Shown piece by piece: positions 2,701-56,600 of a stretch of DNA of 64,000 nt. Position numbers and translations under genes: made by a program. Below the pieces are notes generated by a model. It had not been told where the DNA came from. It ran no database searches and saw only the letters and a list, made by a program, of their open reading frames with translations. Every line of letters begins with the position of its first letter. Position 1 is the first letter of the stretch. Source of the stretch: Astropecten irregularis (lineage: Eukaryota > Echinodermata > Asteroidea > Paxillosida > Astropectinidae); NCBI GenBank assembly GCA_963971285.1, contig OZ020258.1:6076001-6140000 (forward strand), in the 5' to 3' direction.

Positions 2701-2760
2701 AAATACAAATTTTTGCTTCTTTAAATAATAGTTATGACCAAGCAATGAACATGTACCAAC

Positions 2761-2821
2761 CTTTGGCAGAGTGGATAGTTTGCTCAAAGACGGAGTCCTT
2801 TTCTTGCTCACGGTCGGCCAT
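2761..2821 (-). CDS. Possible first coding exon of an unidentified minus-strand gene
   Basis: On the minus strand an ATG in a good initiation context (AAAATGGCC) opens a 20-codon frame. It begins MADREQEKDSVFEQTIHSAK and then meets a possible donor (GTTGGT). The preceding sequence looks like a 5' leader. I find no downstream partner exons between here and the left edge, so the product is unknown. The donor is weak and the exon may be spurious. If it is real, the rest of the gene lies to the left, in part outside the window. Confidence 0.25.
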
Positions 2822-3553
2822 TTTCAAAGTTACGAATTGTTCTCCCCGGCCTAGCAAACAATCACTGTCATTTCTTGGCACCTCTAAAAGTCAAACAACT
2901 TCTTCCACTTTTTTTCGGCGAAACAAGACAGAAATGTCCCAAACTTTCTTCGGTTTCTTGAAGAACTTCTACTCAAGCACCCTGTTGTTGCTGTTGCGGT
3001 GCCGAGAGGTGAGAGAAGGCCGCTTTTGAGACAACTTTTTGGTACCGGGATGGTGGTGCCAAGTTAGTTGTCAGGCCGACTTACCCCTACGGAAGTCAGG
3101 GATCGTCTGCACGGAGTGCATGCAACTTTGTGTGCAATCTGATGCACACATTACACACACGCCACCACCATCAACCACTGCAGTGCACCACCACCGCAAA
3201 AAAAAAGTCGATAACAACTAACAATTGGCCCACGGATTTACTATCATTCATCATTCATCCGTGACTACCGTCTTCGGCTTTTAGCTCCAGTATGTTTATA
3301 CTGAGGTCTCTGACTTGTGATTACCATTGTTACTTGCTTAGGCTGATTATAGGGGTTGGGCATATTTATTTTTCTACCGGTGGTGTAAATGGTGATTTTG
3401 AAGTGCATGAACAAAAATCAGCGATGGTGGTTGCCCATGTGCGGGGTCAAAGGTTACGTAGTTATGTAAACAGTGCACGCAGTCGAATCAAAGTCTACAC
3501 TTTAATCACCGTGTGAACGGTACTTAAAAAGGTCTCAAAGTGATCTAACTTAC

Positions 3554-3728
3554 CAGCGACTTGCAACACCACGCGGTCTACTAAGTCCGTCGGTTCCAGA
3601 AACCAGCGATAGTTCTCCTCGCTTTCTCCTTGTCTCTCCAAGACATCAGAGATGGTTATTCGGTCGCCATTCAGGAAGTCCATCTCGCCGTTCTGTCCCT
3701 GTGGACTAACGGATGCCGGCCCAGGTCC
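3554..3728 (-). CDS. Probable coding exon of an unidentified gene
   Basis: The minus strand encodes a compact, acidic, low-repeat frame. It includes MDFLNGDRITISDVLERQ, then EENYRWFLEPTDLVDRVV, and ends at a consensus donor (GTAAGT) at 3,553. Codon choice and composition look like genuine protein, unlike the neighbouring frames. The upstream boundary is uncertain: an acceptor could lie near 3,728 or 3,708, or the in-frame ATG at about 3,682 could be the start. I do not recognise the family. It may belong with the candidate exon at 2,761-2,821, but no junction can be proven. Confidence 0.45.
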
Positions 3729-5483
3729 ACCCCTCCCAAAAGAAGGAAACAAGAAATCAGAACTTAGATTTGTTTTGTAAAAACAGTTTTGTTATTATTG
3801 GCGGTTTACCGGCTGACCCCATGCCAGCTGAAATTCACTTTCAGCATCAAATAAACTGCATAGTTTCTCACAGCCTTCCTTCCACTGCGTCTATTCCTGA
3901 TTCGCTCTGATGCAGAAACTGGTGGAAATTTGTGCTTTCAAAGCTTATTAAAATGAGGCTCGACTGGTCGGAAAGAAAAGTTACAATACTGTTTCCAGCT
4001 TGTAATGAAATTGTCGTCTGCTTTTGTTGTAACCGTCTCCAACGATTTGGAACAGTCATGGGTAGGTTAACGAACCGTATAATATCCAACAAAAAATTGT
4101 ATAGCAACAATTTTTATACTGATTGCCATGTACGCAATCATGGTCGTTGCATGAATAAAATGTGGAGGATTGGTATACAGAACAGTGTGATCACAATAAT
4201 ACTTTTTGACGTCAAAACGTGGGTGGTATAAAGTTACGGGTCGAAAGAGTGACAATTTCTGACAAAAAAAGGCTGTATGATCCAGCTAGGCTCATGCACA
4301 TCATGTTGAGAACTAACGAAGGGGCAAAGGTTCGTAAGATAATACGTGTGGCCTATAGAGGTTTCTGCGCCTTGTCTGATGTCTGCCTTGACTTTTTAGC
4401 AGGCATGACCGCATTCAAACTCAATGTATAACTTATCCTCTGTCTAGCCCCTGTCCGCCTTTTAAACCATTGTCCTTTGAAATCCAGCAAAGAATCAAAA
4501 TCGATATTGTCGATATCACTGGCACCACAGGAAAACAACTAGTTGGGATGATCGTAAACTTTGGCCTTATCATGGTGCCATCAACAGACCAAGGGTTACG
4601 ATCATCGCAACCAGTCAAAAGCCTTCATGGTTGGTCAGTCCAAGTTGTCCGCCAGGCCCTCTTAATTTGGTTGGTGACCTCTTCGGAAGAATTTCTTGGC
4701 CATTTAGGACAAATCCAAAATGTATATTGGCCTCTAGAATTATTTTCATGTGGTTCGACATCTGCCCTTGCAGTTTTTTCGTTAATGGACCAGCGGCCGA
4801 TTTCACTAATGCTTTGCGATCATAATTTCACCAAACTCTTCGTAATTGGTACTCATTTATCGTCGGACTTTTGAATTTTTATGCATTGAGGCCCTACGTG
4901 GGATAGGCCCCCTACTATGGGTTGTCCTTCGATCGTAACTCGAGTTACGATCGATCGCAGGGCTTCGTGAAATCGACCCCGAAAAATACTGGACCTGCTG
5001 ATTGCGGAACCTTTCAATATTATTCAAAAAATGGAAAATGCATGCTGCTTTGAAAGTTTGTTAATATACGTTTTTGCTCAACTTTAAAAGTGACAGAAGC
5101 AGTCGCAAAATGTCGGTGACGTCACGTGCGTAGGATCTAGCACTACCCCCTAAAAATTGTTTTCTTCAAGCAATCTTCCATATTGCATGGCATTACAACA
5201 CTACCGTAGCAATCTTGATCTAAGCGCCCTCTACTGGTTTTATACAGCGTTTGAATGTTAAAAATAAGTCTCCAATGGGTACTCCATGGCGTGCTAATTC
5301 TACACCTTTTTCTCTAACTTGGCTAATTCGAACTCCCTTGTGTTCAGGTAATACAAAAGTTGGACAATTGGTAAATTTTCAATGATCTTTATTTTACAGC
5401 TGAACTATATAGCTTACTTGGAAAAGTCAAATTCCTACAAGTGTTATAGATGGCGGACACCACAATGAATGGCATAAGAGTTG

Positions 5484-13205: not shown

Positions 13206-16200
13206 CTACATATCCGCTCCCCACATTGAGGTTGACGCTGTCTTTTCCTGCAAAATGACAAGAAGTTGAAACAAAAGTTGTAAATCGTGTTCACTGAATC
13301 AAGATACTCAGATTTTCTATACATTTCTTATTGGCCTCGGATAAAATTGATCACACAAACATCCCTACTGATTTGGGGAGTTGTAGTTAATTGCATGGCA
13401 AAAAGAGACATTCAGATTCCTTTGACTGAAACCCCATATTATTAATACCAGAATTACTTTCCAAGTAAGGACGTATCAACAAACTAATAGTACTAAATGC
13501 ATGTTAAAAGGCTTGTAAAATGTACTGGAGTCGATTTCACCAAAAGTCATCTTAAAGGTAGTATCATACTTTGGTAAGACACCAAAACAGAAATGTTCAC
13601 AGATTTACGTATAACTTACAGGGTATGAAGATGGTGGTGGTAGAAACATACCGTTAATTTTATTTCCACCTGAAATGGTGTATTTATCCAGAAATTAGTA
13701 AAACAACCACCGAAAATCTTTTTGATCTTTTAAAAGATCAAAAATAAAAGAGAAAAGACTTAAGAAATACTGTGGCTGTTTTTCACGATTTTCTAAAAAA
13801 GTGGGCACTGTATGGGACTGAAATTTTTACAGATGACTGTGACTGTATCTTCCTTGATATTTTTGCCCACGAATCTGTACTTCTTTGACAAAAACCAAAG
13901 TATGATACTACCTTTAAAGGGAACACGATATAGGATTTAAATTGCATTATTCCTGCTTAAATCTATAAAGTACTATATCTACAATGACATTTTGTGTCTC
14001 GAGCTAATTATTTCCTGGATTAAATATGAGAAAAAAAATGTTGAAAATGTTTGTCCAAGCTACTACGCCCCTTGAGTGGGACCCTCATTAACATAAATCT
14101 TCCCAAATGCGTGACGTAAATCGAGGAAGCTGCAGCCGCGCGCGCGCGAGCCGGCGCCCCATTCACCGGCCGGTCACATTGTATATATGCATATCCACGA
14201 AGCCTAAAATCGTTCATCAAAAATACTTTTCGAGAAAAAAGGCTTCAAAGATTTTACACACAACGCGTGTCGTAGTGCTGACTGACGGTTTTACGTTGGT
14301 CTGTGTGCGAGACGGATCACTGAAGAGCAGCTTGCAGGCAATGCCGGGGGTCTGTGACCGTGCAAGTTAAGATGTTTTCTAGAACTTCGATAAATTTCCG
14401 CCCCTCGATCTGCGTCACGAACAGCGCCCTCAATTTGAGTCGTGGCAAATTCCCAAAAGGGGGAGGCAATTTTTGGGCGACAAAAAATCAAATGAAAAGT
14501 TCACTTGCACCAGTTTGGCTTTTAATTCACATTTAATACATGTAAATGAATTTATTTATGAAATAAAATGCGATACGCCCAGTTCAAGCAGCTTGTTTCC
14601 TTTAAGGGACACCATTATAAAGCCTATGCTCCACCCTGATGGGAAAACCCATTATTAAAGTGGACATATATACTGACCGGCTTAGCAGTGGATGTATTCA
14701 TCAAATTGTCCCGCTTCTCAATGTTTGTGGCCAGCGCCTGGCTGCGATAGATCAGATTCTTGGTCTTCTCAATGACCTGCTGGTATGGCGACACGTTCTG
14801 CGAGCCCATCACAACATGACCCTGAATAAAAGAGAGTGAAAGAAGAAAGTAGATTAGAGTGAGGTTTGAAATCTTGCTGGATTGGAAACGTAAGGTTTGA
14901 AGTTTTGCATGGTGGAGACACTAGAATGAATAAGGCTTGCGGTGACACCATGTCTGAAAATCTCTTTTAGGAAGATGTGTGGTCCTGAAAAGGACCGATG
15001 AGAGTGGATTCTCGACGTTTCGACTAGTCTGCTCCAGTCGTCTCTCCTGAGGACGACTAGAGCACACTAGTCGAAACGTCGAGAATCCACTCTCATCGGT
15101 CCTTTTCAGGACCACACATCTTCCTAAAAGAGATTTTTATACATGGTGTCACCGCAAGCCTTACTCATTCTAGACTGGAAACGTTGTCTTACTTGAAGCC
15201 TCCTTACATTTTAAACCATAGACATACATAAGAACACTAGATGACGCATCAATTGGCTGCTCGCGGATGTGTCATACACGCTGCCATTTTTAAAAGATAT
15301 AGAATTACTCACAAATCCATTTTTATGGAATGCCGTAGCTATCTTGCTTAGATTGTTTGCTTCGGTAATTCCATCATTCAATTTGCCAAATTGAATGATG
15401 GAATTGGTGAATGGAATGACAAGATGACAAATTGAATGACGGAATTGGCCAATGGAATAAAAAGATGACAAAAAGAATGACAGAATTGGCCAATGGAATA
15501 AAAAGATGACAAATTCATTGATGGCATTGGTGAATGGAATGACAAAATGACAAATTAAATGATGGAATTACTTACAAACAATGTAAGCCAACGAAGATAG
15601 CAACGTCGTTTCATGATGTTTCTGTGTGCACCGTGCCTGCGCGGCTTGCACGATCGTAAAACTGCTGCGAAGCATGGGCAGGTGCGGTATGCGTTGTTGT
15701 TTTTCTACATCCATGGTGGACACAGTCATGACGCATGTACCTCCCACTGGATGATGCACGAGTACGTCATCTGGTTTTCTTATATATCTATGTTTTGAGC
15801 GATGGTCTCTTGTTGTTCAGAACATCCTAGAGAGGCCGTCTCCAAACCAGCTGACCGTTTTTGTTTAATCTAAACCAGCACCTGAAACTCACCTACATAA
15901 AAAAGGGATTTGATTTTGTAGACCTGTCTTACCAATTTGGAGTCAATTTTGGCGTCCAGATGAGCGTTCCTGATGAGATTGACAATCCAGCGTTCAGCAT
16001 CCTCTGGGTTCATGTTCAGCTTGTCCGACAACATTCTGCCAAAAATGGAAAAAGAGAGAAATCTCGGGTCAGTCTTCTCAAAAACAGAAGCTTCTCAAAA
16101 AGCAGCGAAGAATTTGGGAGCAAAGAAAGTCCTCTAAGCTTTATCTTCTCGCCTGAAGGTTGGCTTGTTGACGAAAGAATTAAAAATGCTTCCTAAGAAA

Positions 16201-38900: not shown

Positions 38901-41176
38901 AAGAGGATAGATTCTCGCATGTTGTCATCTTCACTGAAATCAGTCAGGTTCCAGCCCAGATGCTGAGCCAAGGTCCATCGTCCCTGAGATTTCTGTAAAG
39001 CAAAAGTCACATTTCAAGGAGTATCTATAACATCATTGATATTGAAGGCTCTGTCTCGCTAAAACCAACAGGCTGCATGGATGCCATCTTTGACAAAATG
39101 TCCCCAAATGACAACAAAGACCGTAAAAATCCCAGGCTGTGGAATTGATATGCCGACAGTGGACGTCGCCATCTTAAAAAAATGACGTCATGCATCTCAT
39201 TTCAGGGCACCCGACGCAAAAGGCGCATGTTATTTAATTTTGTGACATTACAAAACTGGTCCCCATTTAAACCGTTCTTGCATAAGATATGAGCTGGGAA
39301 TGGAGTGATCGCCTGGCAGGTGCCCAGACTTCTGACACACGAAGCTCTGCCCCAATAGATGGCGAAGTCCACTGTCGGCATATCAATTCCACAGCCTGGG
39401 ATTTTTACGGTGAAATTCACGGGAAATTGTACGGTTTTGGAAAACTTTAAGGGGCTGGTGTGAAAAATCAACGTCTGAGAAATATGAAAGTGTAAGTGAA
39501 ATTGTCCAGTCTTCTTTATTTGAGAAGATATTCAAATCGGCAGTTTTTGACAATTCTGCTCTTTGGATCTCGCGCATTGAAGTCATGCGTTGAAGTAGGG
39601 CTGTGAATGGCGACCAGGCTGAGACTGAGAGACAGATTTTAAAAGAGAGCAATCGATCTACAGCCCTAACGTATATGTGTGGGGCTAAGTTTCACTACTA
39701 CTAGTAGTACTACTAGTCTCAGTTTGACAGCTAGCTCAGCCTTAACGTCAGTCTCATTTCCCATAGCCTAGGCCAGTCTACTCCGTTACACTCTGCATTC
39801 CCTTGGCAAGGATACGGAGTGTAGTAGGGCCTAATACATGTAACGGAATACGATAGACCATGGTTCCTTCCTCCATGCTCAGCCTGAGGTTGGACCATGA
39901 GCTGCCCAGGGAGGCTACGACATGGTGGTCTTACTTCTTCCTGCAGTCACCGGTTTCCGATGGGATAACGGGAAAACTTCTATTAAACAGAAACGAAATA
40001 AAATTTCAGAAAATCACTTCACTAACTTTGAACTGGACACTTCCAGATTATACTCTGTAAAAATCATCGAAGTTGAAGTCTTTTCTTTGGAAATATTGTC
40101 CGTCATTTACAGTGACATCGATTCCGCTATGTAAACAAAGCGTCACCAGTTTTCGATAACTTGGTTGTGCGGCAAAGTTCGTTGACATCGGAGTAGCTAT
40201 GGCGTGCCAAGTCACTCAAAAATTGATGAAATATTGTCCTGACTTGATTTGATCGAACTGGGTCGATGGAGTTATTTATAAAAGGTCCTGAAACTGTTTT
40301 GATTCAAAGATCGTGATTGATAAATAATTTTTTATAAATAAATGGTTGAATCAACAAAATGAGAATTTGGTATAGATCATGGTAGGTAAAATTATTATCA
40401 CAACATTTTTATAATATATGGCATCATTATGAGAGGCCTAAACGTGGATAGCTTAAGTTCATCAGCTTAGCAAAGTTTCAAATTAAAAAGAGAAAAATAA
40501 AATTATGGCACTTCGATTTGAGAAAGACTTTAATACTTTTGTTACATTGGCATGCCATAAAAACCCAGATCGCACTGGGATCACTTGACCTGCCGTCTGA
40601 CATCGGAAGAATGGAAGTTGTTCGAGCAGACGACAGTTTAGTTTGGAATATTTGACCACAGATTGTGTCTTTTATAAACGTTTGAACATTAGCCTTAAAA
40701 TGCATTAGTAATCTATACCCAAAATTACATAGTTTTTTACTTTTGAGTATCACTCACAACTGAAAACTTTATTCTCAATATCCTGAATGTTGGAGATAGC
40801 CCTGAGTGTAGTCATCACTTCAGGCATACTGATCACGAAGTATCACGCACGGTCTCGCGGTAAATGGGAATCAAATTTCATCATCGGAAACATATGTCCA
40901 TCGGAAACTTATGTCCGGACGATAACACGTTAGGCTAGGCTACTCGTTATAGGGGGCCTAGTTATGACTGAGGGAAATAAAACTGACCAAGTTCAAGTTG
41001 GTTAGTTTTACTGCACCCGATAACAAAATGTAAAAGTATGACGTTCATTCTACATCACAAAACTTAACTTACATTTTCGAGTACTTAGTTTCCAAAAAAT
41101 ACCTCGATAAAGCTTAATTACGTACCGGTAAATAGGCAACTTGTTTTGCCTTTTCAGGCGTCACGGAAGCTGCCAT
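35994..41176 (-). CDS. C8orf74: C8orf74-like protein
   Basis: Five minus-strand exons read in one frame: 41126-41176, 38794-38992, 38115-38341, 36863-37039 and 35994-36293. Together they are 954 nt, 317 aa; human C8orf74 is 294. The N-terminal part (NLTDFSEDD, SILLDYLHGSLTFAVDHG, FPWSQV) follows the human pattern of SILLDTLYESIIFAVGKG and FPWVEV. Exon 3 has SHLFATFMRHYRLFQFVF and LEVHPPP, matching the human TFIRHYKLYQYVL/LEV..PP region. Exon 4 is a charged helix (about residues 160-218). Exon 5 ends in a basic Ser/Pro/Lys-rich tail, also seen in the human protein. Its function is not established; the vertebrate gene is testis-enriched. All splice sites are GT-AG with matching phases. Intron 1 contains a foldback (39,121-39,410) and the host repeat at 39,940-40,924. 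Confidence 0.85.
36333..36770. repeat. Two copies of the GATCC foldback family
   Basis: GTTTGGATCCTTTTGCAGGA and CAGACCCTCCTAACTCCAAG bound a copy at about 36,333-36,560. A shorter one (about 36,660-36,770) has TTTCGATCTTAGCAGGATC and the inverse. They lie in intron 4 of the C8orf74-like gene. Same family as 21,979 and 44,397. Confidence 0.5.
37205..37540 (-). mobile_element. tRNA-like SINE pieces, minus strand
   Basis: Reading the minus strand, GGTTCGAATCCCACTGCA (from about 37,497 leftward) and a degraded counterpart near 37,225 carry B-box-like sequence. ACTCAACCAGCC and AACTGAGCTATCCAGCC match the A-box head of the family at 22,352. Both are degenerate. Confidence 0.4.
37640..37996. mobile_element. 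TTAA-type MITE, second subfamily
   Basis: It opens with AGTACAGGATTGGTAAAA and closes TTTTACCAATCACCTTAA. It shares the ATTTATCCAGAAATTAGT block with copies at 12,241 and 63,404. Lies between exons 3 and 4 of the C8orf74-like gene. Confidence 0.5.
39121..39410. mobile_element. Long-armed foldback element
   Basis: Arms of about 50 bp are nearly perfect inverses: the left begins CCGTAAAAATCCCAGGCTGT and the right ends ACAGCCTGGGATTTTTACGG. The loop is about 185 bp. In intron 1 of the C8orf74-like gene. Confidence 0.7.
39940..40924. mobile_element. 985-bp repeat element (intact copy; empty site for the RAG-like transposon)
   Basis: This element is almost identical to 50,240-50,731 plus 55,961-56,459, and it lacks the 5.2-kb insert found there. 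Imperfect inverted ends contain GTTTCCGATGG (39,953) and CCATCGGAAAC (40,898). The single TTATG at 40,427-40,431 marks the uninterrupted target. No convincing frame is present; the longest minus frame has no recognisable motif. Confidence 0.75.
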
Positions 41177-42452: not shown

Positions 42453-45400
42453 CTACTTGATGTAAGGGATCAGGTTTGCCTTGAACCATTCATTGGTGAA
42501 CTGGAGATGGTTAGTAGGTGACTGGAGGAAGACTAGTTTGCCAGCCTTGTCCATTGCCTGCAAGCCCAGCTTGTCCTATATAGAATAATATCAAAAAGTA
42601 AATTAACAAAAAATAAAGTAATGGCATATAAATGGTGTCCAAGAAAAAACGCAACACTTTGTGTTGAGAACTATTATATAAAATATTAACTGTTTATCAC
42701 TTCAGATATGTGATGCAGATATGTCTTGGCTATCACCATGTAGAATTTGAGCCAAAATGGACTAAAATTGAGTAAAAAAACTAAGACTGAATTACCCAAC
42801 CTCAAAACCTGATTTCCATCTTTCTTTCATACACATTATGTGTGTATTGTCCACTATGCATATTATCCTTGCAAATTTGTTTTTAATTTAAGGAGTACTC
42901 TATCAATTGGTCATATTTTCGCCAATTTCAGCCCGATTTTGCTTAAAATCTACATGGTGATAGCCAAGACATGGTTGTATCACATATTTGAATCTTGAAA
43001 TGATAAACTGTTTAATTTTAACATAATGGGTCCAGACAGTGTTGCGTTTTTTTCTGGGACACCCTGTATACCTCTACAGTAATAATCTGCCAACAATGCA
43101 AAACACTAAACAAAAAGTTGTAATCATTCATTCTTTGAGTTGTTTTTAAATGTTATTACACTGATCCTTTTAAGAATGTTACAGATTTTTAATGTGGCTC
43201 AAAACATGCTGAGTAATGAATGCTTACCTCAGTGTACAATGAACTCTCCTGCAGGGTGTACATAATCTTAGCTTGCCCTGGCTTATAGAAGCCAAACCAC
43301 TGCAATAATAGGGGAGACACAAACAAAATGAAACTAAATAAAGGAAAAATCAAGGCAACAGCTCAGAGAGGGGAGGAAAGAACTGAAATCTGTCCAAATG
43401 TGTGACAAATCCTTACTTTAAAGGAAATTTCATACTTTGGTTTTTATCAAAGAAATACAGATTCATGGGCACAAATATCAAGAAAGATACAGTAACAGTA
43501 ATCTGTGAAATTCCCAGTCCCACACGGTGCCAACTACCTAGCTTTAGTGAAAAATACCCACAGTATTTTAAGATCTTTTCACTGTTATTTTTGATCTTCC
43601 GCAGATCAAAATTGTTTTTGTTCATTGGTTTTACTCTTTTCTGGATAAATACAGCATTATCCCTTTAGAACCTTGTGCTTGGCACAACAGCGAAATCAGG
43701 AAGATGTCAACCAGGAACATACCTCGCTCTCCTTGGGCTCAACCATGGTGTCCTTGGAAAACATGACCATCACAAACTTGTTCAGTTTCTGCAGATTAGT
43801 CTTGTAGGTTTCATTGACTTTCTGAAAAAAAAAAAACAACAACAAACAAACAACAAACAATTTAAAACGTTTCCTCTTTGAGTGATCCCCCATGTACCGT
43901 TCCCAGGTTGCAGCATTGCTGCGTATATCATTGAAACGATCCTGGCGGTATGTGCGTGGTTTCACAGCTTCTGACTGCCAAACGAACAAAGATAATTGAC
44001 AATTGAGGTCAACACAAACGCAGGGTTGGATGGCTCAGTTGGAAGAGTGCCTGTACGGTATTCAGGAGGCCACCGGTTTGAATCCCGCTCCAAACAATTT
44101 TTTCCCAGTTTCCCTTGTGGTTATTCAATGATCAATTTAAAAAGTAAACAGAGAAAATTTGTTTGGAGTAGGATTCGAACCAGTGACCAAAACACAAAAC
44201 ACAAACAATGCCTTACCAGTTCCTGGTTAATATCAGCCAGATAGATGCTCTTCTGTCTGTACTCGGCCTCATTCAATGGATCGTGCCAGTATTCTGCCTG
44301 CACCAGACTAAAATTCACACAGTGATAAAGAAATGCAAAGTAATTTACTGCTGCAAACTGCTCATCAGCCAAAATAATGACCTGAAACTTATAAAATGCT
44401 TGGAATGTGGAAGGCCTGACACATTTCGATCCTAGCAGGATCTTTAATGATAAGACTTCAATAAAGATCCTGTTAGGATCGAAATATATCTGGCCCTCCT
44501 ACTCCAAGCAGTGAAAAATAATAGATCAGTTTCGCATGACATAGTTTGGTTCAAGGGTTATTCAAAATAAAACACAATACTTCACAAATGAACAATCTGA
44601 CTGTAAATGACACGTACCATATACATGTTGTACAAACCTTAGGCATCTACAGTATATGGGCATATTAGTGATCATGAATGACCTCTGACCCTTATGTGCA
44701 ATTCAACTCCAAGTGAATTACTGCTAGCGTAACTTCACTTAGAAAACTGGAATCCATATTACAAGGTTGTTAATGCCTCCCTGGAGAAACCAGTCTACAA
44801 TTGGTACTCTTTATTTTATACACAAAGAATGTGTTGAATACTTACTTATCCTGCACAAATCTTGACACGACAATTTCCATGGAAATGAAAAAACAAGAAA
44901 GAAAGAAAAAATTTAATTACAAACAAATACTCAGTGTTTCAGTTCTCATTGTTTATGAACAAGTTCTAAATGCACAAACAGTGAAACAATCATGTTAAAA
45001 TTATCACAGAATGTGGTTATAAAAGGTTAGACTAAGTAAAAATGAAAGTCAAATGTCTAAGAACTGCTGTAAGCCGCACAAAGGCTTATCAAGCACAAAG
45101 CCATCTCTACCCTCACAGGTACCCATTTGCTTCTAGGTGAAGAGGAGCTATATGTGACAAAGCATCTTGCCCAAGGACGCAAGCACCTTTAACCCATGGC
45201 TGGAATCGATTGACCACTAGACATTAAGAATGACACAACAGTGGCCAATTTCATAGAGCTGCTTAAGCAAAAAATTTGCTGAAGCATGAAAGTCTTCCTT
45301 GATCAAACAGGATTACCAACCAAATTTTCATGTAATATTTACTGCTTTTGACTTGCATTCGGCCATTGTTTGTTGAGCATAGCATTCACAAGGAGTTTCG

Positions 45401-48400
45401 GCTGGCATACTGATTTTAGTGACCACGGTTTTTGGTAATTCAGCAAAGTTTGGTGCTTAAGCAGCTCCATGAAATTGACCCAAGTAAGCCACAGCATCCC
45501 AAATTGTTGCGGTTAAGACACTGCACCTTTACTTACTCGATATAGGCTCCCATATTCAGCAGTTTCCTGACGAAATTGCAGAGTGTTATATTATCACCAG
45601 GACACCTGGGGAATCCGTAAACTCCTACAACCACAAAGACAAAAAATGTAGTACTAAAAGCCAAGGTAGGTTTGAGGTAGGCACCATGTAAAAAATATCT
45701 TCCATAACTGTGTGGTTCTGAGAAGACCCGGTGGTGAACACTCGACATTCCGAAGATGAACGGGTGAAGGGTGAAGCAAACAGATCAGAGCACACTGTCC
45801 GCAAGCGTCGAGGTATAAAACCATAGGTTCTTCTCAGAACCACACACTTATAGAAGAGATTACATGGTGTTACTGCAAACCAACCTTAGTTAATAGTTCT
45901 TCCATCATGCATGGCTTTTTAGGTGCAGTACAGGATTGGTAATTAAAATACCAACAGAAATGTTCACAGATTTATGTCTAACTTTCAGGGAAGAAAAAGT
46001 AGTATGGTATACATCGTTTAAGAATTGTTGTTGTTGCAATATAATTACCTTGATGTTGTCCTCCGACTGAGATGAGGTTCAGCATTGGTGGGTCTGGGCA
46101 TCGCTGAGCAACGGTCCGCCTTGAAAACAAATAAAGTCCAACAAAAAAATCAAACATCACAAAAGGCATCGAAACACGTCAGGCCCTACTGACTCCAAGC
46201 ACTCTAAATGTCTAACTCCAGTTATTGCTTTTCTCGTTGCAATAATTTGTTAAACATTTTCGGAAGAATGTTAGAGCCTATAAAGCTTATAAAATAAAGT
46301 TGTAACAACTCCGTGTTCGTCCCCGAACACTGAAATGTCTAGTTAATTATGTTTCAGTACTTAAATCGCAAAGTTTAAAGGTATAGTACATGGAGGTAAA
46401 GGTCGCAGAGCAGCATCCATACTTTGTCTGATCCAGCATGTACATTAAATAATAAACCTGTGAAAATGTGAGCTCAATCGGACATCTGAGTCGGTGACTT
46501 GGACTCGAGTAACCAATCTTTATGACTTGTGACTTGACTTGGAACAAAATGACTCAAGATTTGACATGACTCGAGAAAATTTGACTTGCGAGTCGACTTG
46601 ACTTGTGAAAATTTGACTCTGTTACAACTCTGCATTGAGGCGAAGCAAACTTACAGGAATTGACCTCCCTGCGAGAAGCCCATGGAGTTGTATCCCTTGG
46701 CCAGCTTAGGGTCTGACTTGATCTTGCTGCAGGCCATGGCCACTTGCTTGTTGGCATTCATCAGAAATCCATTCTCTGTATCCTGAAGAAACAAAATTGT
46801 AACATTAAGCCAATTAAAAAAGCAAATATATGGATAGAGTCTTGTCTTTTTGGAAAAAAGGAAGGAGGCGGCCCCTTTTTTCCCCAATAGGCCGACTGAC
46901 ACATTTATTTGAAACAACTGGCCGGGCCCACAGGCTAGGAAAATGACTAAAAAGTAGACTTTAGGCTTAAAGTATTGGAACTGCTGTAAAGAAAATTTTT
47001 GGAACCCAAGTTGTGGGTCAATTGCAAAAATGAGACTGAACAAGCATAACAGATGTGTGAGGATCAAGAAAAAAAATACCGGGAGTTCAGGGGAATTCAC
47101 GATCTAGGAGTCGCGGTAGGTGCTGCAATGTTTCACCAAAATTTCATCTATCAATTGTTGTTTTCAAAACCCATAGCGTGACAGCACCCCGAAAAGCAAG
47201 AATGCTAGAACTAGAAGGTTCACAGAGTACTAGTAGCCTTCTAAATCTAGAAGTATGCAGTGGGGAGCTGTAACAGGAAAACCAATGACCCTCAAGTATT
47301 GTGCATCTATTTTTAGCATTTAAGATGAATAAATACAAACCTCGACGATGCCGTTTCCGATTTCCAGGGAATGGACATAAATTCCTGGTACCTCCTTCTC
47401 TATCATTGACTGAATGCTGCCCAAGCTGAGGGGATTACAACAGCTATCACCTAGCATTCAAACAAAGAATGAAGAAAAATAGCGGCTCAAAACTCAAGCA
47501 AGTTTAATACTGTGCAATGTACAATATACAGTACCTCAGGGCTCGAAATATCCACTAGACCTTTGACCGAGTCTAGTGATTTCAGTGTCGGTCTAGTAAA
47601 GTGTGTATTGCACTAGTCCGGCTGTCCAGTGATTTTTGACACAATATTGCATACAACGACCATTTTCCTATGGTCTAGGTCCAGGTCTAGTGAAAAATGT
47701 TCAGGTCTGGTAAAATGCATCAATACTAGACCAGCTGTCCAGTGCGTTTTTTCACGAAATTCGAGCCCTGTACCTTCATAGCCTGCCACATTTCAAAATG
47801 GATAAAAATATGCAACATTTATATCAAACAACAGGGGTTGATTTCTCCAAACTCATCGTAAAAAATACTTTCAATCGTAGGACTTATGATCATTTTGATG
47901 CATTTACACTTTACAGGCCTAAGACTAAGAAGAGGCTACATAGGATACGATGGGTTATCCTTCGTAAATCTAGTTACAATTGATCGTAGGGCTTTGAGAA
48001 ATCGACTCCAGAACGCCGGGCAGTGGTGAGTGTTACTGCTCACACTGTCACAGCAGATTTCGGAGTTGGCCTAATTGCAGAATACCCCGCCGCTCAACTC
48101 TCCCTCATTGAACCTGTGTACAAATGACCGCTCATATGTTTATGCACTGGAATTTCGAGTGGCGGGGTATTCTGCAATTGAGCCCAGATTTCAAAGTGAG
48201 CTATTTATTTCTGTAAACTTCGGGGGTCCCCTGCCACTGCACTCAGTGCACTGTGTTTTTTTGTAGAGCCTGGACTCTGAAGGTTTGGTCCTCAACTTTA
48301 CAATCGCCATTTATGCTACTCCATTACTAGGGAGGACGAAGTCACGCGCGCGGGCTGTGTAAACAGAAGAAAAATGTGAGCGCACGGCGAAATGGGCCAT

Positions 48401-51400
48401 TTTCAAGAATTTTTTTCATCGCTAAAAAACCCATTAAATTTTATATGTTGTCTAGAAATATAATAAGAAGTATGTTTTCTCAGATTTCAGCAAATTTGAA
48501 AAGGATACAATGTTTACTTCTTAAGATATCGGAAGTTGAAGTTGGTATCTTGCGCCGAAAATCACTCTTTTCAGCGCGCATCGAAAAAATGGCCCCAAAA
48601 AAATTCGCGTTTTGCCCATTTTTGACAGCAGATCGGTGCTAGGAGTAACTTCCGATTCAGTTAATCTTGGTGTCAAAAGAAAGCTTATATTCTCCTCTTT
48701 CTAGAAATACCACTTTCCAAGAAGGCATTTTTTGTTTACAGTAGGAAAATAAAAATCTTAGCACAAAATCACGAGGAACTATACTTTGCCCGCTCGGGAA
48801 GTACATCGAAACACACACGGATCGAAAGCTAAAATCCCGATGCATCTGAAAATAAAAGGGCCAACCTCGTTCACAGCGCCAGTTTTCCTTTACAGCACTT
48901 TCAAAACGAGCTCCGCGGTCGAGGTTGACAGACTAGGTCTGGTTTTCACCTCCTCTATTTTGCCATACTTTCATTAAAAACGCACAGCGATGTCCCGTGG
49001 GCCGGAACCAGACTAGACTTGTTTATCATGACACCGCGTGCGTGTGTGTGTATGCATTGCGTGACGGACATGACTTGTGTGTAATGCATGCACTGAATAC
49101 ACTGTGCTGTGTGTTACATGCGGCGGTGTACAGTACGAACCATCGGTAAAGGTACGCTTTGAATGGGGCATAACAGATCAAAAGTTTCGGTCAAATTTGC
49201 AACTTATAAATTTGTTGAATTCTTTTGGAAACTTTTTGATCTTTCAAGATTTTTGTGTGGATTATTCCAGGTTGATTTTCAATGTGTGAAATCTTTTTGG
49301 GGGACACATTTCTGAACAGACTTTGGGAGTTTTTTTTCATGATGGCTGGAACACTAAGTCAAAGAATGTGTGTGATGCATACTTTGTCTTCTTCACTTAT
49401 TATTTTTGGTTCAATGCATTGTTATTTTTGATTAATTTCATGAAGGCTTCATTATTCCAGTGGGTGGGGCAGACTAATTGAAATGACTAATTAGTTAATA
49501 AACACACAGTGACACAATTAAGGTAACATTTCTCATTTTTATTTCTCTGATTATTACACTTACTTTTTAATATAAACATTATTTGATTTTATTATGCCCA
49601 TGGTTTAATTATTCACCAACCATGCTCAAAATTGATATGGAGACCGTCGTTAAGTCTAATTAATGATTTAAAAAAAATAAATTAAATGTTATGAAGACAT
49701 GTATCAAAAGAAATTGAGTCTACAGTACAAATTGTTCTGAATCCAGTACTGAAAAAATGAAGTCCATGTCATTCTTAGTTTATGAGATATGGTTTTATGA
49801 AAATGACCGATAACTCCATATTTTATTGATAATGTCAAAGCGCCATTTTTGAGTACATGCCAATTCTGGTATCGTCATTTCCTCATTTGGACCATTTTCA
49901 GTGGTCATTTATCAAAGTTTTGTTAGGACCCTGAGCCTTATTCTTACTTTTACCAAGAGATATCCTTCCTGGTAACCAGTTCCATTTCATTTTACTGCCA
50001 AAGCTGCCTCATATTTCTGTGTACAAGCAGTCAAAATTCCCTTTTTATCACTTTCGGTTGCTAGGCAACAAGAATTTCCCAATGAAATCGACCTTTAACG
50101 AGCCATATTTTCAGAACCGCTTGACCGATTTGGACCAAACTACCACCAATCATCATTATTCACTTTGCTGTTTCACACTAGGCACTTTACAAATGAATCC
50201 CTGCAACTTCATTTTTCACTTTGACCTCCCTACCATTAGCCTGCAGTCATCGGTTTCCGATGGGATAACGGGAAAACTTCTATAAAACAGAAACGAAATA
50301 AAATTTCAGAAAATCACTTCACTAACTTTGAACTGGACACTTCCAGATTATACTCTGTAAAAATCATCGAAGTTGAAGTCTTTTCTTTGGAAATATTGTC
50401 CGTCATTTACAGCGACATCGATTCCGCTATGTAAACAAAGCGTCACCAGTTTTCGATAACTTGGTTGTGCGGCAAAGTTCGTTGACATCGGAGTAGCTAT
50501 GGCGTGCCAAGTCACTCAAAAATTGATGAAATATTGTCCTGACTCGATTTGATCGAACTGGGTCGATGGAGTTATTTATAAAAGGTCCTGAAACGGTTTT
50601 GATTCAAAGATCGTGAATGATAAATTATTTTTTATAAATAAATGGTTGAATCAACAAAATGAGAATTTGGTACCGATCATGGTAGGTAAAATAATTATCA
50701 CAACATTTTTATAATATCTGGCATCATTATGCACATACAAACTTACTGGGGAATTCTTCGTATGCAAATTAGGTGAACAGCGCCGCTCATTATGACGTCA
50801 CGAGCAAATTTCGCTTCGCGCGCTCGCCAAGACTTCGGCCGATTTCGGCCCGACTCGCTTCGGTTTTATGAATGAAATCTTTATGCATCGGGTGTCGCAC
50901 ATGCGCGAAAATACATCGATGTCAAGCTAAAGATGGCTGCTTCCTGGTGCCGATGAAAACGTGAAAATCGGTGAGGTTTTCGGTGAGTTTTTACAGTTTA
51001 AATATTTGTTGGCCATCTTCCTTTTCGGATCTGAAACTTCGTTTTGTCCGAGGGGGTCCAACTTTTTAATCCAGTTTTTCTTCCTTCTCGAATTTGGTTG
51101 GAACAAACCTGAATTAGGTCTGAATAGTGGAGGGTTTCAGCTGTCGAATGGTGTAGCACACGTGGGTGGTCGGTCTGATTTATGCGATGGTCGGTCGCAA
51201 TATGCATAAAATTCATGGTCATTTTTCGGTTGAACTTCCATAATTCGCGAATTATTTTCATGTGCGCAAGTGATTACGTGAGAAACACGGGCGCGCGCAG
51301 GAACCAACTTGTGTGTTGTTTTATACGTACGTACATGTATGTAGGCCTATAGGATTCGCCTACTGTACATGTACATGTACTGTACGTGATTAGAAAGCAT

Positions 51401-54400
51401 CGTAATAAAAAAATTCAATTTAAATTTATTTCCTTGCTTGCATTTTGTTAATCCTGCGTTTGGTAGTTAAATTTAAATTATTCAGGGATGTGGGACTTCA
51501 GATTTAAATCTGAATTCTGATTTAAAAAAAAAAGAAAGATTTTAACTCCAAATTAAAATTTCAGCTCTGAAATTTTTTAACCGGCCTGCTCTGTACAAAA
51601 GTATAGGAACTTTTAAATTTCAGATTTTTCCTTGGTGTTTTACTGTTTTCAGATTTTGTGTGTGAGTCCACTCATCTCCGAGTTATGATCGTTAAACATT
51701 TTAATATATTTTAAATTTGACCTTTATTGTTTTTTTTGGTCAGAGGTTTATTTAAACAACAGTCATGATTATACATTGAACTTCCATGCCCAAATGCCAA
51801 TTTAAGTCGAAGCAGGTAAACTCGTATGGCAATAAACTTATACGCTGACCAACTCGTACGCTATATAATTACCAACTCGTACGCCAATCAACTTGTACGC
51901 CATGTAATTAATCAGTTGGGTTTTTTTTTCGAGGGGTTTGAGGGATTGGATATTATCAGGACAAGTTCTTTTAGGCTTTCCATTTTAGGGGATAACAAGA
52001 TTTGTTTTCAATGTATCAATGGTTTCCTTTTTCTAGTGATAAATTTTTCAGGGGATTGATATTTTTAAGGGGAAAAACATTTTAAAAAAAAACTCCAGAA
52101 TCCCTGAAATTCAGAGAAAAGTCGTTTAATTGGAAATGGTGTACGAGTTGATTGGTGTATGATTTGGTTGGTGTATGATTTGGTTGGCGAACATGTTGAC
52201 CTACTTTTAGTATATTGACTCCCGACTTCATGGAAATTTTTTTTAGTATTGACTTGTATAGTCATCACTCATAGATCATGCTTTTAAATATGGTAAATAA
52301 ATGAGCAGTTCAAACCTGTAGTAGTTTTCAAATTTCTACTTCAGAATGTATACGGTAATTAACTTCAAGTTTGTAGAAATCGGTTGAACAGACAATTGAA
52401 TATTGATAACAAACTAACAATTGTGGAAAAGAAAGACTTCGGACTAGATTTTGTTTCAGAAATAATTCTGAAACAAGAAACAAAATCTAATCCGAAGTCT
52501 TTCTTTTCATAATTCTTAAACAAAATCTAGTCCGAAGTCTTTCTTTTCCACAATTGTTAAAAATAATTTGTCTTAACTACGTTAACAGTACTCTTTGATC
52601 TTGTTCTTTTCAGAACAATGGCCGAGTTCATAGACAGACGCAAGAACAACCTCAGCAGGTAATGCAGTACTGCAGGATTTACAAGACCCCCTTGAGATGT
52701 CTCTGTAGTCCGTAACATACAATCATATCAGTAAGTGATTGATTAAGGTATTGTATAACATAGATATTACTGAAGATGATTTCGATGTGCATCTTTCTAA
52801 GATGTGTGATGGGTGTAGAAGTATGATTCGTACTGGTACATGTATATCAAATCCACTGGTGAAGAAGAATCAGTACAACTGCAACATCATGTACCTACAT
52901 ACACCAGCCACAATTCCTCCTCATTCACAAAATTGTGAAATATGTATCGTAAAAAGTGGTGCCACTACCCCCCAAAAAAAACACAAATGTAAATAAATAA
53001 AACTGTATTTTATTTTAAGAAATATAAATCACAGAGTGTGATTAAGATCAACCTGCTAAGCTTAGTGGGCTGCCTTCAAAATAATCTGAGATTGTTCATC
53101 CAGGACAGAGTTTGAAGTTTGAAGTGTCACATACGATCCCAATTTTAGCATCAATAGTCTTTCTATCAGTCAATCCCACGTTTCTTCGCTTAAAAGTATA
53201 TAAACACAACTAAAATGACTATTTATATGTCCATTGAATGGATGGTTTTGTGCTTTGCCTATTGTTTTTTCCTCTCCTGATTTGTATTTCACGGCTACAT
53301 GTATGATTTGCTCTTACCTTTGCACACACATCACAGCTTGTTGGTACAGAGGCAAGGGACATCATTGTCCAGCACTATGACTGGAACAAGTTCCTTGAGA
53401 CATACTTCCAGCCTCCGACTAGCATCAAGGGTATCAACATTTCAGGTAATAATATTTTTAAAAGAAAAAAAAATGTGTCCTAAATTTCACCCCACCTTAT
53501 CACTCCTCAGTATGCTGTTCATATGCAAGACATTAAGGCCATAAAAAAAAATTGTTGTATTGGCATAACCCGCCCGACCCAAAAATATGCCCCGACCATA
53601 AACATTTTAAACCAAAACAAATAAAAATTAAAAAATTAATAAATAAAAATCGGGAAAAATATAAAATAAAATAAAAAAATCGCAAATTTGTATGCAGATT
53701 AAAAGCTTAAAAGGAGCATAAGATGGAAACCAGACTGGTTAAAGTTGTTATGTCATTTCTTGTCTTTATTTGACAAGTCAAATACTGTGATATACAGGGG
53801 GAAAAGCATTTAATACTCCAGGAAAAATTTAATAAAAAAAATGAAAAATCCGCCCGCCCTACCCTATTTTCCAAACCTCCGTTACGCCAATACAACAATT
53901 TTTTTTTATGGCCTAATCTTAATTAATTTTTGGTTATTTTGTTTGTTTTTGCCATTCAAGGACTACACAAACCTGGAGTTATTTTTTTCCAGGAAGTCCC
54001 TGCAAGACCCTGAAACACCAATCAACCCATCACCCACCGGCCAGCTGATCTGCCAGCCCCCAGAGAGACCCCGCCACCAGGCTTGGATCCACAACGATAG
54101 TGCACTGCAGTTGTATTGAGAAAATGCACCAGTTTGGCAGCGATCAAGCCACCAAGAACACCACTTGATTTTCTCATTTCTCAATAATTATTTTACAAAA
54201 TATGTTATTCATTAAAAACGTTATTGTTTTTGTATGAAAGAATTTTTTTTTTTCACCAAAAAAGGGAATAAATTTCAATCCACACCCAATGACGTAATTT
54301 GTTCAGTAGCAACACTACAATAATCCAGATTTACACCATGATGCATTTTATTTTCATGGATTTTGTCCACAAATTTTATTGTTTACCCAGAAAAGGAAAT

Positions 54401-56600
54401 GGTAATATATATATAATTTGTTAACCTGCATTTTACATGGAGTTTCTTGATTAAAAATGAATGGAAGTCCAAGGGAGAACTTAGCAGAGAAATTTCCACG
54501 GCTCATTTTTGAACACTAGTTTCAATTTCACACTTTTTGCCCTTATAACATAATGAGTTTTTAATCATCAAAACAATGTCGGTGAAGAAAACTAGCTCAA
54601 GTTTTTATTAGTTGAAGGCATTAAAATAATTACAAATGTGACAGTAAACCGCAAATTGTGTTCAATTTGAGTCTTGAGTGTGATTGTTTAGATAATATTT
54701 TGTTCTAGAATGAGATTAATATAAGGATAGACAGATCATAGAGGGATTAAATATATTTACTAGGTGTTAAAAGAATGAAGAGATTGATCAGGATGAAGTG
54801 AGGAGCTGCTGAGTTTACAGCAATGTTTGTCAAGTGTTTGTCAAGTAGTCTAGATTAATTCTTCTTCACTTCCTTTATGTAATTGGTAAACCCAAATTTC
54901 ACAATAAGCAAACAAGTCTGGCACAAGATACAAAACTCTACAATTTCAAGGGAATACAAACTAAGGAATATATAGGTTGCTAAGGAAATAAGTAAAGAGG
55001 ATTATATGCCATATCCAGTTGTAGCACTTTTTATCTATGTTTTGCCTGTTTAACCTTACAGACTGAGGAAACAAAAATATTTTAACAGAAAAAATAATAT
55101 ACTACAATGCAGTGTCACACCATTTTTAATTCAATCTCAATTTCTGCTCTTTCACATGAATCCCAAAACTCATAACAAACTTTCATCTCATGTCCTCTCT
55201 TGGTTTCATTTCACAAGTGTCATTTCCTTTTATTTGCATGTCTCTGGCTTTCTTGGGATAAGTAGTGAACATCGGGATTCCGACCATAAACTTTGATCTC
55301 GATCACTTTTGCAGGATGTAGGCTTTGTTCTTTATCCATCCAAATAACCACGGGTACCATCCAGACTTGTTCAGATCTGAAATGTTATTAATATGAAGTT
55401 AAATTTACTTAAAACATATACACAGAAAGTCACAGATTACTGTGTATTTCAGTGGCTAATTTACAACATAATATTAATGTAGAAAACCACGGTTGCCGAA
55501 TTATTGTACTTTGGAATACTAGAATTCCATTGCATTTGGTAAAAAAACACGAAGCAAGGAGTTTTAAACATGCTACTAAAAAAGTATTAAAGTATTATTT
55601 AGCCCGAGGCCTAGGCCTACAAACAAAAATCCACACTATACATACACAGTGTACAGTAGATCATGTACAATACTGTACTGTACAATAATTATATGCATGC
55701 ATGTACGTACGTGCACTGCATGCACACAGCCCGGCCGTGGGAAAAAATCAGATTACACACACACTATGCAGCGATCTTTTGTGTGTTGCCCTTTTGACCC
55801 GGCCATTGCCATGGTAGCTGACCACAAGCCTCGAAGTTCAGATTACGCCTGAGGGGAATGACCAGCGGCAGGAAAGTCGCCGACAATTTTTTTCATAAAA
55901 TGATTGCAAGTGCGCAGGCGCGCAAATTCCCGCACGATGTATAGGGCAGGTTTGTATGTGTTATGAGAGGCATAAACATGGATAGCTTAAGTTCATCAGC
56001 TTAGCAAAGTTTCAAATTAAAAAGAGAAAAATTAAATTATGGCACTTCGATTTGAGGAAGACTTTAACACTTTTGTTACATTGGCATGCCATAAAAACCC
56101 AGATCGCACTGGGACCACGTGACCTGCCGTCTGACATCGGAAGAATGAAAGTTGTTCGAGCAGACCACAGTTTAGTTTGAAATATTTGACCACAGATTGT
56201 GTCTTTTATAAACGTTTGAACATTAGCCATAAAATGCATTAGTAATCTATACCCAAAATTACATAGTTTTTGTACTTTTGAGTATCCCTCACAACTGAAA
56301 ACTTTATTCTCAACATCCTGAATGTTGGAGATAGCCCTGAGTGTAGTCATCCCTTCAGGCATACTGATCACAAAGAATCACGCACGGTCTCGCGGTAAAT
56401 GGAAATCAAATTTCGTCATCGAAAACATATGTCCATCGGAAACTCATGACCGGACGATACTTCTTCCTGCACGGAAATCAATGAAATAACTAAGTGATTT
56501 CAATAAACTTACCCATTCCATGCCACATAACAAGAGGCACTGTGGCAAGTGCCGGTGAAAAAATGACCAAAATAACGAGGAAAACGCGAACATCCATCAT
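42453..56600 (-). CDS. PPT1: Palmitoyl-protein thioesterase 1 (lysosomal)
   Basis: PPT1 removes thioester-linked palmitate from proteins during lysosomal degradation. Ten minus-strand exons join in frame: 56513-56600, 47341-47450, 46655-46782, 46049-46119, 45537-45624, 44846-44860, 44217-44307, 43723-43821, 43228-43299 and 42453-42575. The product is 294 aa (human 306). Residues 1-19 form a signal peptide ending PALA, followed by [18 protein letters not shown]. The catalytic triad is intact: S103 in GFSQGG, D221 in FSKDT, H277 in TNHLQF, each exactly 12 residues earlier than in human. The N-glycosylation sequon NET (N200) is conserved. Exon 6 is only 15 nt. Intron 1 (about 9 kb) holds the RAG-like transposon on the opposite strand. 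Confidence 0.95.
42626..43068. mobile_element. Mariner-like MITE with GGGTGTCCC ends
   Basis: Left end ATGGTGTCCAAGAAAAAACG and right end TTTTTTTCTGGGACACCCTG are inverse, with internal CAACACT/AGTGTTG. TA flanks are compatible with mariner insertion. Between PPT1 exons 9 and 10, non-coding. Confidence 0.65.
43416..43672. mobile_element. Partial TTAA-type MITE
   Basis: TTTAAAGGAAATTTCATACTT at the left matches the terminus of the AGGTAGTATCATAC family. The core GTCCCACACGGTGCCAAC follows. The right terminus is missing or degraded. Between PPT1 exons 8 and 9. Confidence 0.45.
43872..44092 (+). mobile_element. tRNA-like SINE unit
   Basis: The spacer GATCCCCCATGTACCGTTCC is followed by a head at about 44,022 with TGGCTCAGTTGGAAGAG (A box) and GGTTTGAATCCC (B box). 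Same family as 17,770 and 22,195, more diverged. Between PPT1 exons 7 and 8. Confidence 0.55.
44397..44508. mobile_element. Short foldback with GATCC repeats
   Basis: TGCTTGGAATGTGGAAGGCC and GGCCCTCCTACTCCAAGCA are inverse. The inner TTTCGATCCTAGCAGGATCT and AGATCCTGTTAGGATCGAAA also pair. Same family as 21,979-22,099. Confidence 0.6.
45242..45480. mobile_element. MITE with CCAATTTCATAGAGC termini (copy 2)
   Basis: Ends GGCCAATTTCATAGAGCTGC and GCAGCTCCATGAAATTGACC are inverse. The interior matches the copy at 20,443-20,683. In PPT1 intron 5, adjacent to exon 5. Confidence 0.65.
45661..45890. mobile_element. Foldback element carrying histone-like stem-loops (copy 3, diverged)
   Basis: Lies in PPT1 intron 4, near exon 5. 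It contains GGTTCTGAGAAGACC (45,714-45,728) and GGTTCTTCTCAGAACC (45,826-45,841). The outer arms have GCACCATGTAAAAAATATCT and TTACATGGTGTTACTGC. The central part is less palindromic than in copies 1 and 2. Confidence 0.65.
47534..47772. mobile_element. Short inverted-repeat element, hAT-like ends
   Basis: CAGGGCTCGAAATATCC at the left and ACGAAATTCGAGCCCTG at the right are inverse. CAGGG termini are common in hAT-derived MITEs. The expected 8-bp duplication is not clean. Between PPT1 exons 1 and 2. Confidence 0.45.
48066..48190. mobile_element. Small palindromic element
   Basis: GGCCTAATTGCAGAATACCCC and GGGGTATTCTGCAATTGAGCC are inverse, spanning about 120 bp with CGCC/GGCG at the arm bases. 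Non-coding. Confidence 0.5.
48290..50239. other. PPT1 intron 1 sequence without a recognised feature
   Basis: AT-rich non-coding sequence inside PPT1 intron 1. The short frames show no motif. The CpG-containing part (48,330-48,980) might be an old repeat, but I found no boundary. Confidence 0.4.
50240..50731. mobile_element. Host repeat, left part (interrupted copy)
   Basis: It aligns with 39,940-40,431 at a constant offset of 10,300 bp, so there is no net insertion or deletion over 490 bp. Only scattered substitutions are seen. It ends in TTATG (50,727-50,731), immediately before the transposon. The right part resumes at 55,961. Confidence 0.8.
50770..50960 (+). promoter_or_regulatory. Putative promoter of the transposon gene
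   Basis: A CpG-rich segment at the left end contains TGACGTCACG (CRE) and, at about 50,932, AAGATGGCTGC, a YY1-like start context. An ATG here opens only seven codons. Possible donors follow (GGTGAGTT near 50,981). Promoter role is inferred from motifs. Confidence 0.4.
52415..52560. repeat. Nested hairpin inside the RAG-like transposon
   Basis: AACAATTGTGGAAAAGAAAG at the left pairs with CTTTCTTTTCCACAATTGTT at the right. A third related arm (CCGAAGTCTTTCTTTTCAT) lies between them. It sits just upstream of the candidate exon at 52,614. Confidence 0.6.
52614..52658 (+). CDS. Candidate small exon of the transposon gene
   Basis: Bounded by a pyrimidine tract plus AG acceptor (TTGTTCTTTTCAG) and a GTAATG donor. 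One frame starts with ATG ([13 protein letters not shown]). Another is open throughout and is the one that keeps the downstream frame with WNKFLETYF. The choice is unresolved. Confidence 0.35.
52748..52996 (+). CDS. RAG1 N-terminal-like zinc-binding fragment
   Basis: The frame follows an in-frame stop at 52,736 and probably starts at an AG acceptor at 52,746-52,747. It begins [15 protein letters not shown], then [10 protein letters not shown], then [10 protein letters not shown]. It aligns with the human RAG1 zinc-binding N-terminal region, where KVFRIDV, FCHNCWSIM and PHTPSCDIC appear in the same order. The metal-ligand pattern (H...CxxC...PHxxxCxIC) is kept. It then ends after KKHKCK at a stop. 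In RAG1 this part lies outside the catalytic core and is not needed for DNA cleavage. The rest of a RAG1 is not seen. It lies inside the transposon and may be one exon of its gene or a decayed piece. Confidence 0.65.
   Translation, partial: VLYNIDITEDDFDVHLSKMCDGCRSMIRTGTCISNPLVKKNQYNCNIMYLHTPATIPPHSQNCEICIVKSGATTPQKKHKCK
53337..54119 (+). CDS. Candidate spliced exons of the transposon gene
   Basis: Exon 53337-53445 (acceptor CATCACAG, donor GTAATA) has a protein-like frame with [17 protein letters not shown]. The next acceptor is at 53,960 (TTTGCCATTCAAG). Phase-correct joining continues [16 protein letters not shown] and stops at 54,011. Joining from the MAEFIDRR frame instead gives a longer tail with [17 protein letters not shown], stopping at 54,117-54,119. 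The two options conflict. The KPGVIFFQE motif, with an upstream WxxFL-YF, resembles C-terminal parts I recall from uncharacterised invertebrate RAG1-N-type proteins, but this is from memory. Confidence 0.4.
53534..53916. mobile_element. Nested MITE in the intron of the transposon gene
   Basis: Ends AAGGCCATAAAAAAAAATTG and CAATTTTTTTTTATGGCCTAA are inverse, followed by TTGTATTGGC and GCCAATACAA. It fills most of the intron between the two 3' candidate exons, so it arrived after the larger transposon. Confidence 0.65.
55961..56459. mobile_element. Host repeat, right part (interrupted copy)
   Basis: It continues the host element from 50,731, resuming with the second TTATG and then AGAGGCATAAACATGG, matching 40,432-40,924 with scattered differences. 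It ends about 54 bp from the PPT1 exon 1 donor, so the repeat sits at the very start of intron 1. Confidence 0.75.

Follow-up and report, generated by a model that had tools for sequence, protein, structure and literature searches.

Transposons of the RAG lineage gave rise to antibody-gene recombination, and two questions about them are still open: where the N-terminal zinc region of RAG1 came from, and whether such transposons still move in animals. Within a 64-kb stretch of the Astropecten irregularis genome, here called the window, a 5.2-kb insert had been read in a first-pass annotation as a DNA transposon with RAG-lineage hallmarks and no visible core gene. The locus raises the question of whether the insert is such an element and, if so, which enzyme moves it. 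We consider it likely that the insert belongs to a non-autonomous family of cut-and-paste DNA transposons of the RAG/Transib lineage, mobilised in trans by a RAG1-type DDE transposase.

The insertion and its genome-wide family

The sequence CACATACAAAC is present exactly twice in the window, in inverted orientation, at 50732-50742 and 55950-55960, and none of 100 shuffles of the window contained two matches to it. The pair encloses 5229 bp with TTATG on either side, as the first-pass annotation had described. The flanks of the insert align to window positions 40100-40431 (97.3%) and 40427-40865 (96.1%), and these two alignments overlap by the five bases TTATG. The empty paralogue (40100-40865) had been said to carry TTATG only once; this holds at the joint, though the 766-bp stretch contains a second TTATG at a different place. 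Because the inverted pair, the flanking TTATG and the empty paralogous site are found together, we regard the insertion and its 5-bp duplication as real. The features of the element are collected in Table 1.

Table 1. Features of the insertion (window coordinates)
Feature	Position	Strand	Remark
Target site duplication TTATG, left copy	50727..50731	.	single at joint of empty paralogue
Left terminus CACATACAAACTT	50732..50744	+	first 11 bp form a perfect inverted repeat
Left terminal 200 bp	50732..50931	+	29 genome places, 96-100% identity, 26 over full 200 bp
Decayed exon homologous to RAG1 N-terminal zinc (N-RAG) domain	52739..52996	+	PF12560 20.5 bits; pairwise BLASTP
Second exon-like frame	53337..53447	+	weak likeness to a multi-copy gene family; no Pfam match
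Nested insertion, ~380 bp	53534..53913	.	34-bp inverted ends
Third exon-like frame, ending ...SALQLY then stop	53991..54119	+	no Pfam match
Right terminal 150 bp	55811..55960	-	at least 28 matches at ≥92%, at least 13 weaker or partial
Right terminus CACATACAAACCT, read inward	55948..55960	-	11/13 to AanRAGL terminus
Target site duplication TTATG, right copy	55961..55965	.	sequence comparison with empty paralogue

Searching the 475.7-Mb genome with both ends revealed a multi-copy family with constant ends. The left 200 bp gave 29 matches (29/29 candidates scored), 27 of which reach the first base, and the right 150 bp gave 41 matches with 40 of 212 candidates scored; for the whole insert, 30 of 2505 candidates were scored. 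Non-5-bp duplications in other copies had been named beforehand as evidence against the annotation. An exact 5-bp target duplication was found in 25 of the 27 copies with both ends (24/26 in the main check and 1/1 in a further copy), and the 11-bp ends of these 25 are intact. The two exceptions are copy j (C8:3258219), which has a mutated left end and no exact duplication, and copy z (C22:1012886), whose duplication and right end each contain a single mismatch. The duplications differ between insertion places, and 24 exact ones have a G+C content of 52%, compared with 33-46% for 2-kb segments across the window.

Most two-ended copies (23/27) are 4.7-5.2 kb long, the remaining four measuring 2.6, 5.8, 6.2 and 8.6 kb. 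An alignment of 27 copies, with copies f and g left out and 12 of the 27 represented by their left part only, placed most copies in two subfamilies, W and N, which lie approximately 6% apart. Average divergence is 1.2% among six W copies and 1.7% among twelve N copies, and these low values indicate recent movement. The 11-mer by itself is not enriched, since its exact occurrences across the genome (316 forward and 315 reverse) resemble those of a reversed control (337 and 312); the informative signal lies solely in inverted pairs spaced by about 5 kb.

Further features were observed within and around the family. The nested insertion of about 380 bp is missing from copy x and a number of other family copies, and is younger than its host element. 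An imperfect palindrome of about 145 bp occupies window positions 52415-52559, with an 82% match to its own reverse complement. Three diverged right ends with identical 15 outer bases were found at C12:1014863, C12:1055120 and C27:11653617, the C12 pair being inverted and 40 kb apart; these are probably parts of a duplicated larger repeat. Elsewhere in the window (14957-15138, 45821-45866 and 44024-44096), the histone 3' stem-loop (Rfam RF00032) was matched three times and a tRNA-like match was recorded once; the stem-loops suggest that the window contains histone genes.

Terminal sequences and the known RAG-lineage ends

RAG, RAGL and Transib transposition is described as leaving 5-bp duplications, and the CAC triplet as essential for cleavage (PMC7204232, PMC8289069). 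The CAC ends and 5-bp duplications that the first-pass annotation had noted at this one insertion recur across the family, as counted above for the two-ended copies. To place the ends more precisely, we compared them with those of protostome RAGL elements, AanRAGL, ProtoRAG and the RSS. The published protostome RAGL end, associated with 5-bp duplications, is CACTWMCAAACKTYKBB (Martin et al. 2020, PMC7204232). Both window ends agree with it at 10 of the first 11 positions, and over all 17 positions the left end agrees at 14 and the right end at 13. Among the 1794 CAC-starting 11-mers of the window, only five reach 10/11, including both element ends. Agreement with the 13-bp terminus of the pelagophyte element AanRAGL, CACACCCAAACCT (PMC9435367), is 11/13 for the right end and 10/13 for the left.

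The resemblance to Transib, ProtoRAG and RSS ends proposed in the annotation holds for CAC. Beyond the triplet the ends are unlike the ProtoRAG heptamer CACTATG (only 3/7 matched) and the RSS heptamer (4/7), and inspection by eye of the outermost 60 bp at each end did not show the ProtoRAG TR5 block GCCATCTTG. The similarity to known ends is one to protostome RAGL and AanRAGL. A second conserved block, placed at unequal distances in the two ends as in RAGL elements and making the ends bipartite, is suggestive in the W copies but is not supported overall: GGGAATT follows the first 13 bp after 4 and 16 bp in three W copies, where 65-80 of 1000 shuffles do equally well, and in two N copies the block is absent and more than 700 of 1000 shuffles are as good.

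A decayed interior

The RAG1-N-like frame of the first-pass annotation falls short of the PF12560 cut-off, but is upheld by pairwise comparison with frames of the same genome. More specifically, PF12560 scores 20.5 bits on the 85-aa window frame against a cut-off of 23.3. For pieces shortened to 67 aa its scores are 15.1 bits (window copy) and 20.5 bits (copy n), and the unrelated family Folliculin_C reaches 16.0 bits on the window piece, slightly above PF12560. PF12560 appeared in none of six shuffles, one of which matched another family at an E of 0.005, and it went unreported when whole frames of the window copy were read through. Owing to the score below cut-off, the Folliculin_C score, the shuffle match and the read-through result, Pfam by itself is weak evidence for N-RAG.

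Comparison within the genome gives stronger support for the homology than Pfam does, although the evidence is modest overall. By pairwise BLASTP, the window exon matches an N-RAG frame on C24 (E=1e-7, 30.8 bits), another on C19 (E=4e-7, 28.9 bits) and a 77-aa piece of the N-terminus of a RAG1L protein on C5 (E=2e-6, 27.3 bits), these E-values referring to single pairs and not to the whole genome. Against the whole C5 RAG1L protein the E-value is 0.002, and a genome-wide protein search with the exon returned the family copies and one weak place (E 0.05), missing the C24, C19 and C5 frames. The alignment to C24 brings the H, CxxC, H and CxxC motifs of the two frames into register. The P next to the first H is replaced by L in the window copy and is present in copy n. 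The comparison relies on the window copy and copy n; the peptide of copy m was set aside because the actual reading frame of that copy is disrupted within the exon, so that the peptide does not represent a natural frame.

The annotation had also allowed for a very split or decayed gene in an element without a visible core, and the codon positions bear out the decay. Majority changes from W to N within 52757-52957 number 6, 5 and 1 at codon positions 1, 2 and 3, and over the whole frame (52742-52996) 7, 7 and 3; these counts give no sign of purifying selection on the N-RAG exon. N copies have lost cysteines of the exon. The window copy and copies n, l and m have a stop ahead of the exon, and in copy m the exon itself contains a frameshift. 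No strong coding phase was found in 159 windows of the alignment (largest chi-square 8.3, with copies z and C left out), a count in which variation in the first windows is inflated by copy B, aligned from a wrong start. The longest frames within the copies measure 101 aa (window copy), 143 aa (copy x) and 91 aa (copy a). Five of the six read-through frames of the window copy gave no Pfam match below E 0.05, and no RAG1 core, RAG2 or kelch match. The lack of a strong phase signal, the stops and the cysteine losses led us to reject a functional gene within the element.

Two further exon-like frames accompany the N-RAG exon. The second has 10 matches outside the family, at 40-50% identity within its first 35 residues (E 0.06-3.7); four weak relatives of it lie at C11:19.6-21.5 Mb. 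Of the 26 aligned copies, 23 keep the third frame open when read in the alignment columns of the window copy, in which inserted bases are unseen.

As a remnant, the interior may have originated by deletion from a RAG1L-bearing ancestor or from a captured N-RAG gene. Transposons do capture pieces of genes, and capture of the exon from a host N-RAG gene standing by itself, as opposed to internal deletion of a RAG1L gene, strikes us as a serious contender that falls somewhat short of an even chance. The exon is as near to the free-standing frames on C24 and C19 as to RAG1L, and the neighbouring exon is weakly like a different multi-copy gene family. However, the similarities all lie near 30% with no donor standing out, and capture would make the presence of a RAG1-N piece within RAGL-type ends a coincidence.

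Candidate enzymes and comparison with known systems

The element has moved recently, but a search of its interior found no transposase, so the family is probably mobilised by a related enzyme encoded at another place in the genome. A RAG1-type DDE transposase made elsewhere would recognise the CAC-starting ends, cut at the CAC border and join the element to its target with a 5-bp stagger; the interior, including the N-RAG exon, would be a decayed leftover without gene function. The C5 protein, or another enzyme of the RAG1L type, would be the most likely partner. A genome search for the RAG1 core (PF12940) gave 10 matches (12/12 candidates scored), none of them in a family copy.

The C5 gene has an open frame of 1074 aa (C5:137001-141878, stretch L048, frame 1417-4641 on the minus strand) and is apparently intact, judging by its sequence. 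A 1017-aa part (P0001) contains PF12560, a RING finger and PF12940 at 448.5 bits, and the protein has a cysteine-rich tail. In alignment with a vertebrate RAG1 chain, the three catalytic D-D-E residues, which we take to be D600, D708 and E962 of that chain, are conserved, with positions counted by eye. Scores against vertebrate RAG1 chains reach 473.6 bits at best and 434.8 bits for a 618-residue core chain, above the 271.7 bits obtained with amphioxus RAG1L (6b40, 658 residues; identified as the amphioxus protein in PMC9885083). In this the C5 protein recalls the RAGL_A family, which is described as closest to vertebrate RAG (PMC7204232).

A second RAG1-core gene occurs at C23:10194132-10197413 (L056) and C25:7718463-7721744 (L057), two stretches that are 99.7% identical over 3.28 kb. 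One of its open frames, 422 aa long, matches PF12940 (E=3.4e-13), and the other, of 355 aa, has no Pfam match; the gene is, as predicted from these near-identical copies, a recently mobile RAG1-core transposase gene. Should this Transib-like enzyme (C23:10195632, C25:7719963) move the family in place of a RAG1L/RAG2L pair, the family would be a non-autonomous relative of the C23/C25 element. The recent mobility of a gene with a 422-aa PF12940 frame speaks for this version, as do the CAC ends and 5-bp duplications that Transib and RAGL have in common (PMC7204232). We nevertheless think it rather unlikely: N-RAG is without a match in the C23 stretch, and the family ends fit the RAGL consensus in the comparison with RAGL, ProtoRAG and RSS ends.

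The ends themselves were also sought near these genes. No 13-bp end with two or fewer changes was found in stretches L048-L057, which gave loose matches only; L048 covers no more than about 500 bases beyond the first methionine of the RAG1L frame and stops short of the ends of that element. No family-end match lay near a RAG1-core hit among the 29 left-end matches and the right-end matches listed (40/212 scored), and the exact 11-mer was absent from C5 among the first ~100 of 631 places listed. For RAG2, PF03089 had no match in this genome or in the control genomes, and PF13341 gave two weak genome matches, neither above the cut-off.

Other RAG1-related sequences are scattered across the genome. 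A cluster of third-type RAG1L core fragments, some with stops, lies at C11:19000346-20836646 (L049-L055). N-RAG frames of 277-597 aa occur away from RAG1-core hits at C4:206507, C16:10863317, C19:7875089, C1:13375374, C21:10480754 and C24:7234679. The first three are equal in score and frame length, and look like a repeated gene or element.

The family could also represent a distinct transposon lineage that combines RAGL-type ends with a free-standing N-RAG gene, lacks a core and is moved in trans by RAG1-core enzymes. We regard this as improbable. If true, such a lineage would be of the donor type proposed to have joined N-RAG to a Transib core, giving RAG1. Least probable of all, and in our judgement very unlikely, is an unrelated superfamily of the CACTA/Chapaev kind with 5-bp duplications by chance: CAC starts are common to several superfamilies and a partner transposase with the same ends was not found, yet the duplication is exactly 5 bp in nearly all two-ended copies, the ends match the RAGL consensus and the window exon is homologous to N-RAG.

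The likely reading, a non-autonomous RAG/Transib-lineage family mobilised in trans, touches on several known systems. Non-autonomous RAGL elements and an N-RAG-only element have already been described, separately (PMC7204232, PMC8355894). Among the open-licence papers listed, none describes a recent family with many copies in which RAGL-type ends enclose an N-RAG remnant. One genome here contains a young substrate family, a RAG1L that appears intact and another RAG1-core transposase, and the pairing of enzyme and ends is therefore testable in a single species.

Amphioxus ProtoRAG also has CAC ends (PMC8289069), and its duplications are predominantly 5 bp (PMC7204232), as in the family here. 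Its heptamer, however, is matched at only three of seven positions, and the family carries no RAG1L or RAG2L inside, unlike ProtoRAG as described (PMC8289069). AanRAGL, whose terminus is closer and which likewise makes 5-bp duplications, codes for both genes and is reported as self-mobile (PMC9435367), whereas the family here has neither gene. The Aplysia N-RAG-TP is similar in that it too is mobile, contains RAG1-N-like sequence and lacks a core (PMC8355894). Compared by description, its RAG1-N-like sequence runs throughout (PMC8355894), in contrast to a decayed exon between RAGL-type ends here. The non-autonomous RAGL elements share CACTWMCAAAC-type ends, 5-bp duplications and the lack of an intact RAG1L or RAG2L with the family (PMC7204232). 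Those elements are described as a small number of TIR pairs (PMC7204232), whereas the Astropecten family comprises 29 left-end matches, mostly copies of about 5 kb, and is set apart from them by the decayed RAG1-N exon that it carries.
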